Source: Deltaproteobacteria bacterium
GTDB lineage: Bacteria > Desulfobacterota > Binatia > UBA9968
Assembly: GCA_009692615.1 (NCBI GenBank)
Contig: SHYW01000024.1
Span: forward strand, 1 to 53,729
Direction: 5' to 3'
Length of the DNA: 53,729 nucleotides
In this document: piece after piece, positions 46,549 through 52,340 of the stretch
How the letters are laid out: each line of letters begins with the position of its first letter
Position numbering within the stretch: position 1 is the first letter of the stretch
Position numbers and translations under genes: made by a program
Notes under the pieces: model-generated
Seen by the model: the letters and a program-made list of their open reading frames with translations, nothing else
Database searches by the model: none
Told to the model about the DNA's origin: nothing

Positions 46549-47517
46549 TTACGCAGCTAATTCCAACGACGTGACGAAGGGCAGTCCACTGACGACTTCG
46601 CGCGCGCCGCTATCGTCAACGACGAGCAGCGTGCCGTCCGACGTGCCGGCGACCATGCCGTTGCCGTCGGGTGTTGGGCAGAGGTGCATGACGCCGCCTT
46701 TGAGATTGTCGATGACGGTTTCCCAGCTCTTGCCTTTGTCGTTGCTGCGCAGGATCGCCGCCATGGCGCCTTCTTCGCGAATCCAGTTATAAGGCCGGCC
46801 GCGCGCGGCGCCGACGTAGATCACGCCGTTTTTGTCTTCGGCGACGGAGATGCCGTAGCCGTGATTCTTCGGTGAAATATTTTGCCAATGGCCGGCGCGG
46901 TCGGGGCTGCGGAAGCAGGCTTCGCCGCAGGCGAGAAAGACGTTGCCGCTGTGTTGCTTGGACGCCAGGATTTCATGGATATCCATGTCGGTGAGCCCTT
47001 CATTGCAAGGTTCCCAGCCGCGTCCGCCGTCGTCGCTTAACACCATGCCGCCGACTTCGATGCCGGCGTAGAGGCGATTATTGTTGCCGGGCTCGTAAGC
47101 TAAATAGCGCGTGCGCGATTGCAATTCCGGGCTCGGCGGAAAATTTGCCCCGGCGCTGTGTAAGCGCACGCCTTCGAGTTCTTCCCAGCCGCCGTTCTGG
47201 CTGCGATACACCGCCGACGGGATCGTGCCGACCATGACGCCGCCATTCAACGCCAGGGCCGAGTAGAGAAACATTTTCGGTACCTGCGGGTCGGCGCGCT
47301 GCCAGTGGGCGCCGGCGTCCTTGGTGTAAAAGAGTCCCGAGTGTTCGGTGCCGGCGTAGATGGTTTTCGGATCTTCTTCGTCCACCGACATGCAAGTGAG
47401 CGTCCAGTAGGAAAGATCGCGTTTGGTCTGGGTAAACTGTTTGCCGTTTTGCTCGAACCGATACCAGCCGGAAAATGTCGCGACGTGTAGGGCTTGCTTA
47501 CCGTTGGTTGTACTCAT
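46549..47517 (-). CDS. Asp-box (BNR-like) repeat beta-propeller protein
   Basis: 322 residues with S/T-x-D-x-G-x-x-W Asp-box turns: YTKDAGAHWQ, LSDDGGRGWEP, RSNDKGKSWET, plus degenerate copies (RSPDRAGHWQ, RSQNGGWEE). These occur in sialidase-like and VPS10-like beta-propellers, but no sialidase arginine triad is evident. No signal peptide is seen (MSTTNGKQALHVATFSG), so the protein may be cytosolic. A longer paralogue lies at 52363. The repeated MSTDKG-type turns bind Ca or stabilise blades only. Role unknown; the position within a catabolic island suggests a ligand-binding or accessory part. Confidence 0.8.
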   Translation of the reverse strand: MSTTNGKQALHVATFSGWYRFEQNGKQFTQTKRDLSYWTLTCMSVDEEDPKTIYAGTEHSGLFYTKDAGAHWQRADPQVPKMFLYSALALNGGVMVGTIPSAVYRSQNGGWEELEGVRLHSAGANFPPSPELQSRTRYLAYEPGNNNRLYAGIEVGGMVLSDDGGRGWEPCNEGLTDMDIHEILASKQHSGNVFLACGEACFRSPDRAGHWQNISPKNHGYGISVAEDKNGVIYVGAARGRPYNWIREEGAMAAILRSNDKGKSWETVIDNLKGGVMHLCPTPDGNGMVAGTSDGTLLVVDDSGAREVVSGLPFVTSLELAA

Positions 47518-47669
47518 AGTGACTCCTTGCGGCGAAATGCCGAGTGAAAATTGCTTTAGTATTAACTCGACAGGGGTGGGGATGGCAAATGGGTGGAGGA
47601 TATTGATCGTTAGAAAAATGATACTTGTCGATGGTAGAAAATGTCCAGGTCGATGTCGCCTCCGAGCCT

Positions 47670-47758
47670 CCTCTCCCTTGAGGGGAGAGGATTGAGGTGA
47701 GGGTGCTCAATTGATTCCCCTCATCCTAACCTTCTCCCGCAAGGGGCGAAGGGATCGG
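47670..47758. repeat. Palindromic intergenic repeat, family B copy 1
   Basis: The left half CCTCTCCCTTGAGGGGAGAGG with GAGGTGAGGG is mirrored by CCCCTCATCCTAACC..CTCCCGCAAGGGG..GGGATCGG on the right. Related copies lie at 48134 (half), 49126 and 52222. The right half forms the left inverted arm of the DUF559 cassette. Confidence 0.88.
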
Positions 47759-47794
47759 ATAGGTTTGAAGGCAACATAAATTCGGTGGCTGCTC

Positions 47795-48122
47795 ATGAAT
47801 CACGCCAAACAACTGCGGAAGAATATGACGGATGCCGAACGCGTTCTGTGGCGCCACCTACGATCACGGCAGCTTTCCGGTCATAAATTCCGCCGACAAC
47901 AACCGCTCGGTCCATAACGTTGTCGACTTTGTCTGTTTAGAAAAGCGCCTTGTAATCGAACTCAACGCCGGTCACCATGCTGATGACATTCAATTGGAAT
48001 ATGATTCCGAGCGCACAGCTTGGTTGGAACAAAACGGCTATAGAGTAATTCGATTTTGGAATCACGATGTCCGGCAAAGCGCCGAGGCAGTCAAGCAGGC
48101 GATATTTCAAGCGCTCCAATAA
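47795..48122 (+). pseudogene. DUF559 endonuclease-like gene, one frameshift
   Basis: ATG 47795 encodes [40 protein letters not shown] and then TAA at 47915. One base out of the preceding run restores the frame as VVDFVCLEKRLVIELNAGHHADDIQLEYDSERTAWLEQNGYRVIRFWNHDV to 48122. DUF559 (COG2852) proteins have a Vsr/PD-(D/E)xK-like nuclease fold: VVDFVC..KRLVIEL.GGHH is the metal region. Here the acidic Gly-Gly-Asp or Asp-Gly is replaced by NAGHH (Asn). An extra A around 47916-47917 explains the frameshift. The gene is bracketed by 44-bp inverted repeats (47717-47760 and 48134-48177). Confidence 0.88.
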
Positions 48123-48133
48123 ATCGGCTGCGC

Positions 48134-48177
48134 ATCCGATCCTCTCGCCCCTTGCGGGAGAGAGTTAGAGTGAGGGG
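48134..48177. repeat. Family B half-repeat, right inverted arm of DUF559 cassette
   Basis: By hand alignment the reverse complement matches 47717-47760 at 38 of 44 positions, including CTCCCGCAAGGGGCGA and GGATCGGAT. The two arms enclose 373 bp holding the DUF559 gene. Confidence 0.88.
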
Positions 48178-48230
48178 TTAAATCCATTCGATTCTTGACC
48201 GCTGCGCCGATTACAAACGGAGAAAGAAAC

Positions 48231-48548
48231 ATGCCCCTTACCCATGACTTCAAAGAAACGAGCCGCGCCCGCGCTTAGAAGGACGCCAAGTTCCGCCAAG
48301 CGTTATTGTGCGAGGCCGTCGAAAGCTAACTGACCGGCGATCTGGAAACCGGCAAAGCCGTGTTGCGCGACTATGTGAACGCGACGCTTGGATTTCAGGA
48401 GCTTGAAGAGCGCACCGACATTCCGGCCAAAAGTCTTATGCGCATGCTTGGACCCGAGGGCAGCCCATCGGCTGCGAACCTTTCGAGCATCCTTACCGCC
48501 TTGCAGAAAACCGAAGGCGTCCATTTTGAGCTTTCGCTCAAAGGCTAA
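48231..48548 (+). pseudogene. HigA-like (COG3636) antitoxin, two in-frame stops
   Basis: ATG 48231 begins MPLTHDFKETSRARA, then TAG (48276) where Gln is expected, KDAKFRQALLCEAVES, TAA (48327), then LTGDLETGKAVLRDYVNATLGFQELEERTDIPAKSLMRMLGPEGSPSAANLSSILTALQKTEGVHFEL to the stop at 48548. The phrase AVLRDYVNATLGF..L..RT..P.KSLMRMLGP.G.P is the signature of the COG3636 helix-turn-helix antitoxin family, normally paired with a RelE/HigB-like toxin. No toxin gene adjoins. The 62-residue intact remainder starts internally. It is most likely a decayed remnant. Confidence 0.85.
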
Positions 48549-48665
48549 GATGTGAAGCTAAATAACGATTAAGAGCGCGCGGAACAGAATTGCTTGTTCT
48601 GTCTGGGCCTATGGCTCTGCTAGATAATTTTTTGGATTTGCCGTCATTTCGTCACGTTGGGCAGA

Positions 48666-49091
48666 TTATCGCTTGATTGCTGGCGGAACAAAGTTGGCTT
48701 GTACCAACCCTTCCACATACAAGATCGCTTCTTCCACGCACATCTGAAAGCGTTTGGTCTTCGCTGCATCGGGGCGCGGTTGCAGGCGCGACGACTTGAG
48801 TACGTCGAGAATCTCCGTCGACGCCAAAGCGACCATGCCGTCCAGCGCCGCCTGCCAAACTTCTTCTTCCGGATCGTTGAGTGCTTCGACGATGAACGCC
48901 GGCGATTGCTCTTCGCGTCGTTCCCAGGCGACCGTGACTAGAAAGGCGCGTACCTCGGGATCGGTTTCTTGGCCAAAGGCTTCAACCAATGCCGGTACAA
49001 GTTCTTCCTCCGCTTCGAGCAGCGTGGTCATCGCGGCCTCGTCATCGCCGGCGCGAAAGGCTTTTAGGCTGTCAATTATTTTGTCGTTCAT
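48666..49091 (-). CDS. HEAT-repeat-like small helical protein
   Basis: 141 residues from ATG 49091; the frame extends upstream to 49199 but would read through a family B repeat. Sequence MNDKIIDSLKAFRAGDDEAAMTTLLEAEEELVPALVEAFGQETDPEVRAFLVTVAWERREEQSPAFIVEALNDPEEEVWQAALDGMVALAS reads as two to three HEAT-like helical hairpins with the spaced A-L-x-D-P-x-x-V-R pattern. The end (KRFQMCVEEAILYVEGLVQ) is a further helix pair. No enzymatic motif. Acts probably as a protein-binding scaffold, a HEAT-domain role; partner is unknown. The acidic pI fits a cytosolic protein. Confidence 0.78.
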   Translation of the reverse strand: MNDKIIDSLKAFRAGDDEAAMTTLLEAEEELVPALVEAFGQETDPEVRAFLVTVAWERREEQSPAFIVEALNDPEEEVWQAALDGMVALASTEILDVLKSSRLQPRPDAAKTKRFQMCVEEAILYVEGLVQANFVPPAIKR

Positions 49092-49125
49092 ACTTGTCTC
49101 CGCGGCGATGATCTGTGGAGCGCTT

Positions 49126-49219
49126 CCTCTCCCTCGACGGGAGAGGATTGAGGTGAGGGTGCTCAATTGAATTCCCCTCATCCTAACCTTCTCCCGCAAG
49201 GGGAGAAGGGATCGAGGGG
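49126..49219. repeat. Palindromic intergenic repeat, family B copy 2
   Basis: Starts CCTCTCCCTCGACGGGAGAG, passes GAGGTGAGGGTGCTCAATTG, and ends with CTTCTCCCGCAAGGGGAGAA and GGGATCGAGGGG. Nearly identical to the copy at 47670. Confidence 0.88.
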
Positions 49220-52201: not shown

Positions 52202-52221
52202 CGCTGTTTCTAATCCGGTCT

Positions 52222-52340
52222 CTTCCCCCTCGACGGGGGAAGATTAAGATGGGGGTGATTCTTTGAATCGGTTCAATGCGTGCACTGAGCACCCCTATCC
52301 TAACCTTCCCCCGTAAAGGGCGAAGGAATCGGATTCGGAG
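52222..52340. repeat. Palindromic intergenic repeat, family B copy 3 (long variant)
   Basis: Starts CTTCCCCCTCGACGGGGGAAG and ends CCTAACCTTCCCCCGTAAAGGG..GGAATCGGATTCGG, with a longer, partly palindromic centre (TGCGTGCACTGAGCA). It is diverged from copies 1 and 2 but colinear with them. Confidence 0.8.

Follow-up and report, generated by a model that had tools for sequence, protein, structure and literature searches.

TM/PIT repeats and the DUF559 nuclease gene as parts of a probable hairpin-ended mobile unit

The window analysed here, a stretch of 53,729 nt that makes up contig C24 of the 5.05 Mb genome G000, carries a DUF559 nuclease gene between two inverted arms, and further copies of the arm repeat occur nearby with no gene between them. 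The question raised by this locus is whether gene and repeats together form a mobile unit of which the gene-less repeats are derivatives, as the first-pass annotation had proposed by analogy to RAYT genes and REP repeats, or whether a gene has come to lie between ordinary hairpins. By sequence, the arms are copies of a G/C-rich intrastrand-triplex motif already described under the name TM, formerly PIT, and are not private to G000. According to the accessible text of its description, TM/PIT occurs in more than 260 genomes, forms a triplex in vitro and has no stated origin; E. coli K-12 contains 23 copies, with inverted pairs at five sites, and variability is raised around TM copies (Holder et al. 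2015, PMC4666352). The same text reports no link of TM with mobile elements and no shared flanking genes, and it names no nuclease partner (PMC4666352); a DUF559 partner was found here. The TM/PIT of Holder et al., a hairpin with a third-strand tail that also occurs as inverted pairs, is the same repeat as the one treated here, and the E. coli copies in Table 1 of that source fit it (PMC4666352).

The DUF559 gene of the window and its arms

The features of the locus are as follows.

46549-47517, minus strand: BNR/sortilin-like gene (Pfam), on one side of the DUF559 gene
47592..48697, no strand: block in G000, replaced by 128 bp in G001 and by about 2.2 kb of different DNA in G004
47669..47760, no strand: TM pair without a gene, immediately upstream of the DUF559 gene, in the order hairpin, tail, short spacer, tail, hairpin
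47717..47760, plus strand: left arm, tail (CCCCTCATCCTAACC) and then hairpin; TM unit on the plus strand
47795..48122, plus strand: DUF559 (PF04480) nuclease gene with a frameshift between 47911 and 47913 and two invariant motif residues altered
48134..48177, minus strand: right arm, hairpin and then tail; TM unit on the minus strand
48666-49094 region, minus strand: HEAT-repeat gene (Pfam), on the other side of the DUF559 gene
49122..49214, no strand: second TM pair without a gene, which G004 shares and G001 lacks
52212..52335, no strand: third gene-less TM pair, more diverged

The two arms are 44 nt each, lie 373 nt apart and are complementary at 38 of 44 positions (86%), which reproduces the match first noted for them. 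The three blocks of the TM motif, a hairpin and then a third, G/A-rich block, are present in the window repeats, with somewhat degenerate variants. The left arm is at the same time the right half of the gene-less pair directly upstream, and the palindrome at 47670 that had been described as complete in itself is indeed there but proves to be the left hairpin of this pair. Related gene-less repeats were found where such copies had been placed, near 49126 and 52222, and they have the layout of the upstream pair. A 21-nt core of the arm matches 39 sites in the 5.05 Mb of G000 with up to three mismatches and none when the pattern is read backwards, so the core occurs beyond chance. All 17 non-overlapping close TM pairs in the G000 stretches examined have their hairpins outside and their tails facing, which is the layout of a REPIN; overlapping rows, in which one hairpin is matched on both strands (negative gap), were excluded from this count.

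The gene itself is a dead relic, to judge from its reading frames and motif. Its two pieces, profile positions 5-42 at 47798-47911 and 43-109 at 47913-48119, score 71.1 and 46.2 bits against a curated PF04480 cut-off of 20.6 and lie in different frames, and the gene is therefore frameshifted. The E, D, G and H of the motif E-x-D-G-x-x-H are invariant across 29 aligned relatives; the window copy reads ELNAGHH, in which E and H are retained and D and G altered, in agreement with the earlier description of a frameshifted NAGHH nuclease that would now be dead. Unlike this copy, intact DUF559 copies are found elsewhere among the relatives. G000 has three DUF559 genes in all, and of the other two the copy on contig C28 also lies between TM repeats while a divergent copy on C76 has none. 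Just downstream of the unit, at 48203-48548, lies a small decayed gene with internal stops, a piece of which recurs with about 81% identity elsewhere in G001 (C14:697-1033) and whose open part has no Pfam or NCBIfam match.

Occurrence of TM beside DUF559 genes

A scan of a species-genome collection yielded at least 553 confirmed candidate DUF559 loci, the best 80 of which form the wide set; 79 were searched with a small TM profile (215 matches, as against 4 in reversed sequences) after exclusion of L149 for its run of N. Among these best 80 of at least 553 loci, TM lies within 200 bp of the gene at 68 of 79 and on both sides at 46, with the tails pointing towards the gene at 42 of the 46. In the same best 80 of at least 553, 170 TM matches fall in the 35.7 kb beside DUF559 (4.76/kb) and 23 in the 609 kb more than 600 bp away (0.038/kb), an enrichment of more than 100-fold over the same contigs. 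The figure of 68/79 holds for the clade searched rather than for all DUF559 proteins, as it comes from the best 80 of at least 553 loci and alignment A1 was headed by a TM-flanked protein. The association also appears when the repeat sequence is disregarded: the best inverted repeat between two 220-nt flanks reaches or exceeds the 99th percentile of same-locus controls at 53 of 78 testable loci (52 of 77 without the N-run locus; again from the best 80 of at least 553), and the repeats recovered are mostly C/T-rich hairpins with G/A-rich tails.

A second set of 30 DUF559 loci was drawn from G000 and its relatives, with L062 and L063, where DUF559 lies inside longer proteins, excluded. TM is present at 20 of these and two-sided at 17, of which 13 have tails inward, two outward and two parallel. 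GIY-YIG control loci from the same genomes have TM in 0/30, or in a looser search an arm in 1/30, 374 bp away; the far flanks of the DUF559 loci are the better control, since the GIY-YIG loci come in part from TM-poor genomes. No TM is in reach at 10 of the 30 relatives' loci and at 11 of the 79 in the wide set (best 80 of at least 553). By their titles, TM-bearing loci belong to Proteobacteria, Desulfobacterota groups, Chloroflexi, Nitrospinota, Nitrospirae, Planctomycetota, Chlamydiae, Omnitrophota, Dadabacteria, FCPU426 and Gastranaerophilales, where single titles may be wrong because many of the loci come from metagenome bins. In a weakly resolved DUF559 tree of 101 rows and 117 columns (with L003, L149, L053, L056, L059, L060, L061 and L043 deliberately left out, as well as rows of less than 70 aa), TM-bearing and TM-less rows are somewhat clustered, with 13 changes against a shuffled mean of 17.6 (one of 500 shuffles as low), and TM accompanies 78 of the 92 rows with an RFWN-like motif and four of the nine without it.

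Genome counts point the same way. Among 97 genomes (G000 and relatives) 39 have a DUF559 match, and TM arms surround many short stand-alone genes. The 28 genomes chosen for a match of at least 80 bits comprise 21 with at least ten TM cores and seven with fewer, and the 69 genomes without such a match comprise five and 64, respectively (Fisher p 5e-11, the 97 genomes being counted without kinship correction). In other groups a degenerate TM core is found in 42 of 50 DUF559-bearing genomes against a noisy control, the reversed pattern also scoring high in some genomes with C runs. G105, G117, G137 and G136 have 14, 11, 10 and 9 DUF559 matches, in which split matches of broken copies are counted. 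G032 and G070 combine 107 and 136 TM cores with no DUF559 match of 80 bits, and a lost gene, an incomplete bin or another partner are alternative explanations. Taken together, these comparisons indicate a general association of DUF559 with TM across phyla, and both the proposed pairing of gene and palindrome and the expected enrichment of arms beside DUF559 are borne out.

The loci also define the unit. It runs hairpin, tail (GGGTGAGGG-like), gene, tail, hairpin over about 0.43 kb; 44 units of the usual orientation measure 386-542 bp with a median of 428. The upstream TM ends a median of 28 nt before the matched DUF559 domain and the downstream TM starts a median of 24 nt short of where the matched stretch ends; many DUF559 proteins therefore terminate in a translated arm. 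The target-site duplication of a classical DDE insertion sequence is absent from these 44 units: the longest flank repeat averages 2.75 against 3.01 after shuffling and never reaches seven. Gene-less pairs share the layout of the gene-bearing unit, as would be expected of the derivatives that had been postulated. In the window, by contrast, the hairpins of the arms lie inside and the tails outside as viewed from the gene, the reverse of the majority in both sets. The arms named at the outset are thus inverted repeats as claimed and yet an atypical pair of ends, and given its broken gene and the minority orientation of its arms, the window copy is most probably a remnant in decay, perhaps also rearranged, that lies beside a gene-less pair.

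Two variants of the repeat may be added. In Xanthomonas a repeat of about 120 bp (L102 4856-4975) is a TM with its loop filled by a GC-rich stretch, and it has many matching places in genomes of the genus. A Neisseria record deposited as a plasmid has three TM pairs in a row, with a period of 281 bp, adjoining its DUF559 gene (L235 3008-3679).

Presence and absence of units at single sites

At five loci a unit or gene-less pair is present in some genomes and missing from the same place in others: the window locus, valS, a DUF1156 gene, a gene-less pair of E. coli and a site in Xanthomonas. In G001, a member of the same genus, the window locus has the same neighbours with 128 bp in place of the 1106 in G000, and the second gene-less pair is missing; G004 has that pair and other DNA instead of the DUF559 block. 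The ends of this block do not define the unit, as it exceeds the arms and includes the decayed gene. In the Rickettsiales genome G097 a 432-nt unit lies in frame within valS, between FGLVDND and NSIKIMTTRPE (L106), at a position where the gene is unbroken in all 14 relatives read (a match was obtained in 48 of 55 genomes). A second, gene-less unit of the same layout lies in this ORF, and at its position five of six relatives have no unit and one (L249) has a translated half-TM-like stretch. DUF559 also lies in frame, with host domains on both sides, in mfd of G097 and in priA of another bacterium. In Synechocystis sp. B12 a unit splits a DUF1156 gene that bears a further frameshift; five cyanobacterial plasmids have an uninterrupted gene at the split point, and the exact ends of the unit are undefined because this point falls in a variable linker. 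Of 5385 records matching the E. coli hrpB-mrcB locus, five strains were read: a TM pair is present in K-12, precisely one hairpin in EH2252, and neither in the other three. By these sequence comparisons DUF559-TM units, gene-bearing and gene-less, can be taken to insert. Relatives thus have sites that lack the unit, and the unit behaves as an insertion at valS, the window locus, the Xanthomonas site and the DUF1156 gene.

In two further ORFs the gene is joined to other domains. In L040 (442-2613) an ORF that encodes a type I restriction specificity domain contains DUF559 in frame, which may reflect an insertion or a genuine fusion, and in L212 (minus-strand ORF) an arm-like linker connects DUF559 in frame with the N-terminus of an enzyme of the peptidyl-arginine deiminase type. 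In E. coli a clear TM lies 180 bp downstream of the annotated DUF559 gene, ycjD (L176 2908-3261), and a degenerate one at the 3' end of the gene; the stretch spanning ycjD is present in 3362 of 5426 E. coli genomes at 80% coverage or more. The ycjD locus was rejected as a clean empty site: in three strains without ycjD its place is taken by a TetR gene together with an efflux operon, identified as the eef operon in the accessible text of its source (PMC12817139), and since this operon occupies the place, the absence of ycjD is a replacement. The Azospirillum megaplasmids likewise provide no empty site, as seven records cover at least 80% of the DUF559-bearing stretch and all seven have the protein match, one of them partial. 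Three phage records have a DUF559 match, all below 60% identity.

The Xanthomonas site bears on a different reading, in which DUF559 is a homing parasite that cuts TM or its hairpin and is copied into hairpin sites, the gene-less TM spreading by another route. Among 35 species the gene is present in 25, absent in nine and undecided in one (G208, at a contig end, is excluded from the counts). A hairpin stands on both sides at the six of the 25 gene-bearing sites whose flanks were read by eye or by hairpin scan; of the nine species that lack the gene, seven have a single hairpin (AAAGCCCCTCTCCC..GGGAGAGGGGCTTAA), one has none and one has another insert. Presence requires eight changes on the flank tree, at least five of them forced by well-supported branches, and clusters no more than in shuffles on that tree. 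Species with the gene have more TM cores (median 51, range 25-90) than those without (20, 2-38), with a Mann-Whitney p of 1.6e-4, or 0.003 without three near-zero species; a phylogeny-corrected test gives five independent pairs, none against the trend, which at a median p of 0.125 are too few for significance. A reversed-pattern control is unfair to these counts, as the C-rich pattern nearly matches itself when reversed.

A fixed site with patchy presence and one hairpin where the gene is missing is what homing would leave, and to this may be added the fold of the nuclease, the closest characterised relative of which is a homing endonuclease, and the five of 97 genomes, G070 among them, that are rich in TM and have no strong DUF559 match. 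On the other side, whole units or pairs are found at valS, the window locus and in E. coli where relatives have no hairpin, and the gene-less pairs share the two-ended layout of the gene-bearing unit. By sequence, then, the Xanthomonas pattern fits homing, and the window locus, valS and the null alleles of E. coli agree with insertion into places without a hairpin. A single hairpin can also be the leftover of a loss, because EH2252 has exactly one where K-12 has the pair, in agreement with the 'palindrome effect' in the accessible text of Holder et al. (PMC4666352); the single-hairpin alleles may therefore be losses rather than pre-insertion sites. Homing as the whole explanation is considered unlikely.

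The nuclease and the spread of the repeats

The preferred reading is that DUF559 and TM together form a hairpin-ended mobile unit with gene-less derivatives, similar in logic to RAYT/REP and equipped with an unrelated nuclease, in which cleavage and mobilisation would be the work of that nuclease; its probability is put at roughly 0.64. An AlphaFold model of L111, built with 29 aligned sequences (pLDDT 86.7), matches 3HRL, the NGO0050 protein of Neisseria gonorrhoeae, with a Foldseek TM-score to target of 0.90, I-Bth0305I (PDB 3R3P) with 0.78 (E 1.5e-4) and Vsr with 0.49, and a profile search gives E 5.1e-42 for 3HRL and 2.5e-4 for 3R3P. NGO0050 and E. coli YcjD belong to the same protein family as the DUF559 of the unit. 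The predicted fold, that of a PD-(D/E)XK nuclease, thus matches the homing endonuclease I-Bth0305I and Vsr, consistent with the original suggestion of a Vsr-like enzyme. According to its PDB entry, I-Bth0305I is a mobile-intron protein, whereas for the DUF559 gene no intron was recognised and hairpin ends and gene-less derivatives were found.

PD-(D/E)XK enzymes cut DNA and do not join it, so host factors would have to perform the remaining steps. The proposal is of a tiny mobile unit with the DUF559 nuclease gene as its sole gene, of which the TM/PIT repeats form the ends and, without the gene, the derivatives. The enzyme would recognise the hairpin and tail, perhaps in folded form or as single strands at the replication fork, and would nick or break the DNA in a homing-like manner, after which host repair would copy the unit elsewhere. 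As the enzyme would recognise the ends rather than its own gene, pairs without a gene may be mobilised in trans, in the way that RAYT mobilises REPINs; on loss of a unit the two hairpins would join and leave one. Recognition, cleavage, repair route and mobilisation in trans are all inferred.

The fold has also to be weighed against a role of DUF559 and TM as a repair or defence module, which would resolve or mend triplex or hairpin DNA or would be a Vsr-like mismatch enzyme kept beside its substrate. Besides the Vsr fold itself, this has a precedent in the Caulobacter DUF559 protein VsrA, a proposed mismatch endonuclease that, in the accessible text of its source, brings about a DNA damage response in a methyltransferase mutant (PMC12907096). 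Neither the interruption of ORFs by compact, two-ended units nor patchy presence at one site would be expected of such a module, and a PADLOC search gave one weak match for one of two proteins (DpdF, E 0.0022, 13.8 bits) and none for the other, which makes this role improbable.

A RAYT gene is flanked by REP repeats, which carry GTAG/CGTC foot tags, and this precedent would allow TM to be moved by another enzyme, for instance a RAYT/Y1 transposase, with DUF559 as cargo. RAYT was rejected as the mobiliser in G000, where neither of the two Y1_Tnp genes has TM in its 3.3-kb locus, and at the loci covered no other type of gene was noticed as a constant partner of TM; a separate mover is accordingly rated highly improbable. 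That the arms are ordinary terminators or hairpins with a gene between them by accident is hardly credible, since the terminator-like look, by eye, of the single Xanthomonas hairpin stands against the more than 100-fold enrichment (best 80 of at least 553 loci), the conserved tails and orientation, the units inside ORFs and an earlier study, quoted in the accessible text of Holder et al., in which PIT motifs had neither promoter nor terminator activity (PMC4666352).

The hairpin-ended unit with its own nuclease resembles REP/REPIN with RAYT (TnpA-REP) in that few enzyme genes accompany many short hairpin repeats arranged in inverted pairs. The first-pass analogy to RAYT/REP is apt, as seen in the Xanthomonas genome G101 with one DUF559 match and 48 TM cores. 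RAYT is a Y1 (HUH) transposase and the partner of TM has the PD-(D/E)XK fold; as its enzyme class differs, DUF559-TM is a system of an enzyme with short hairpin repeats and not a member of RAYT/REP. Rickettsia palindromic elements are likewise palindromic and inserted in frame in housekeeping genes, much as the unit, which carries a nuclease gene, is in one Rickettsiales genome. As a whole the first-pass interpretation is partly supported.

In the literature covered, outside which lie most subscription journals and preprints, searches on DUF559, COG2852, PF04480 and YcjD found no treatment of repeats or mobility, and searches on DUF559 together with palindromes, repeats, mobility or transposition found nothing relevant; the link may have been noticed elsewhere. 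A broader proposal is that TM/PIT, including the E. coli copies, are the gene-less offspring of a new minimal class of mobile element, with a Vsr-fold PD-(D/E)XK nuclease as its sole enzyme acting on hairpin- or triplex-forming ends, no target duplication and in-frame entry into coding genes; this stands at about even odds.

With a constant nuclease partner the origin of TM/PIT becomes testable, and the instability around its copies could find an explanation. E. coli K-12 has both TM repeats and a DUF559 gene, which brings tests within easy reach. If true, the proposal would supply a large, unnamed family of proteins with a function, and DUF559-TM would be a second, chemically unrelated solution of the RAYT/REP kind, in which few enzyme genes sustain many short hairpin repeats.
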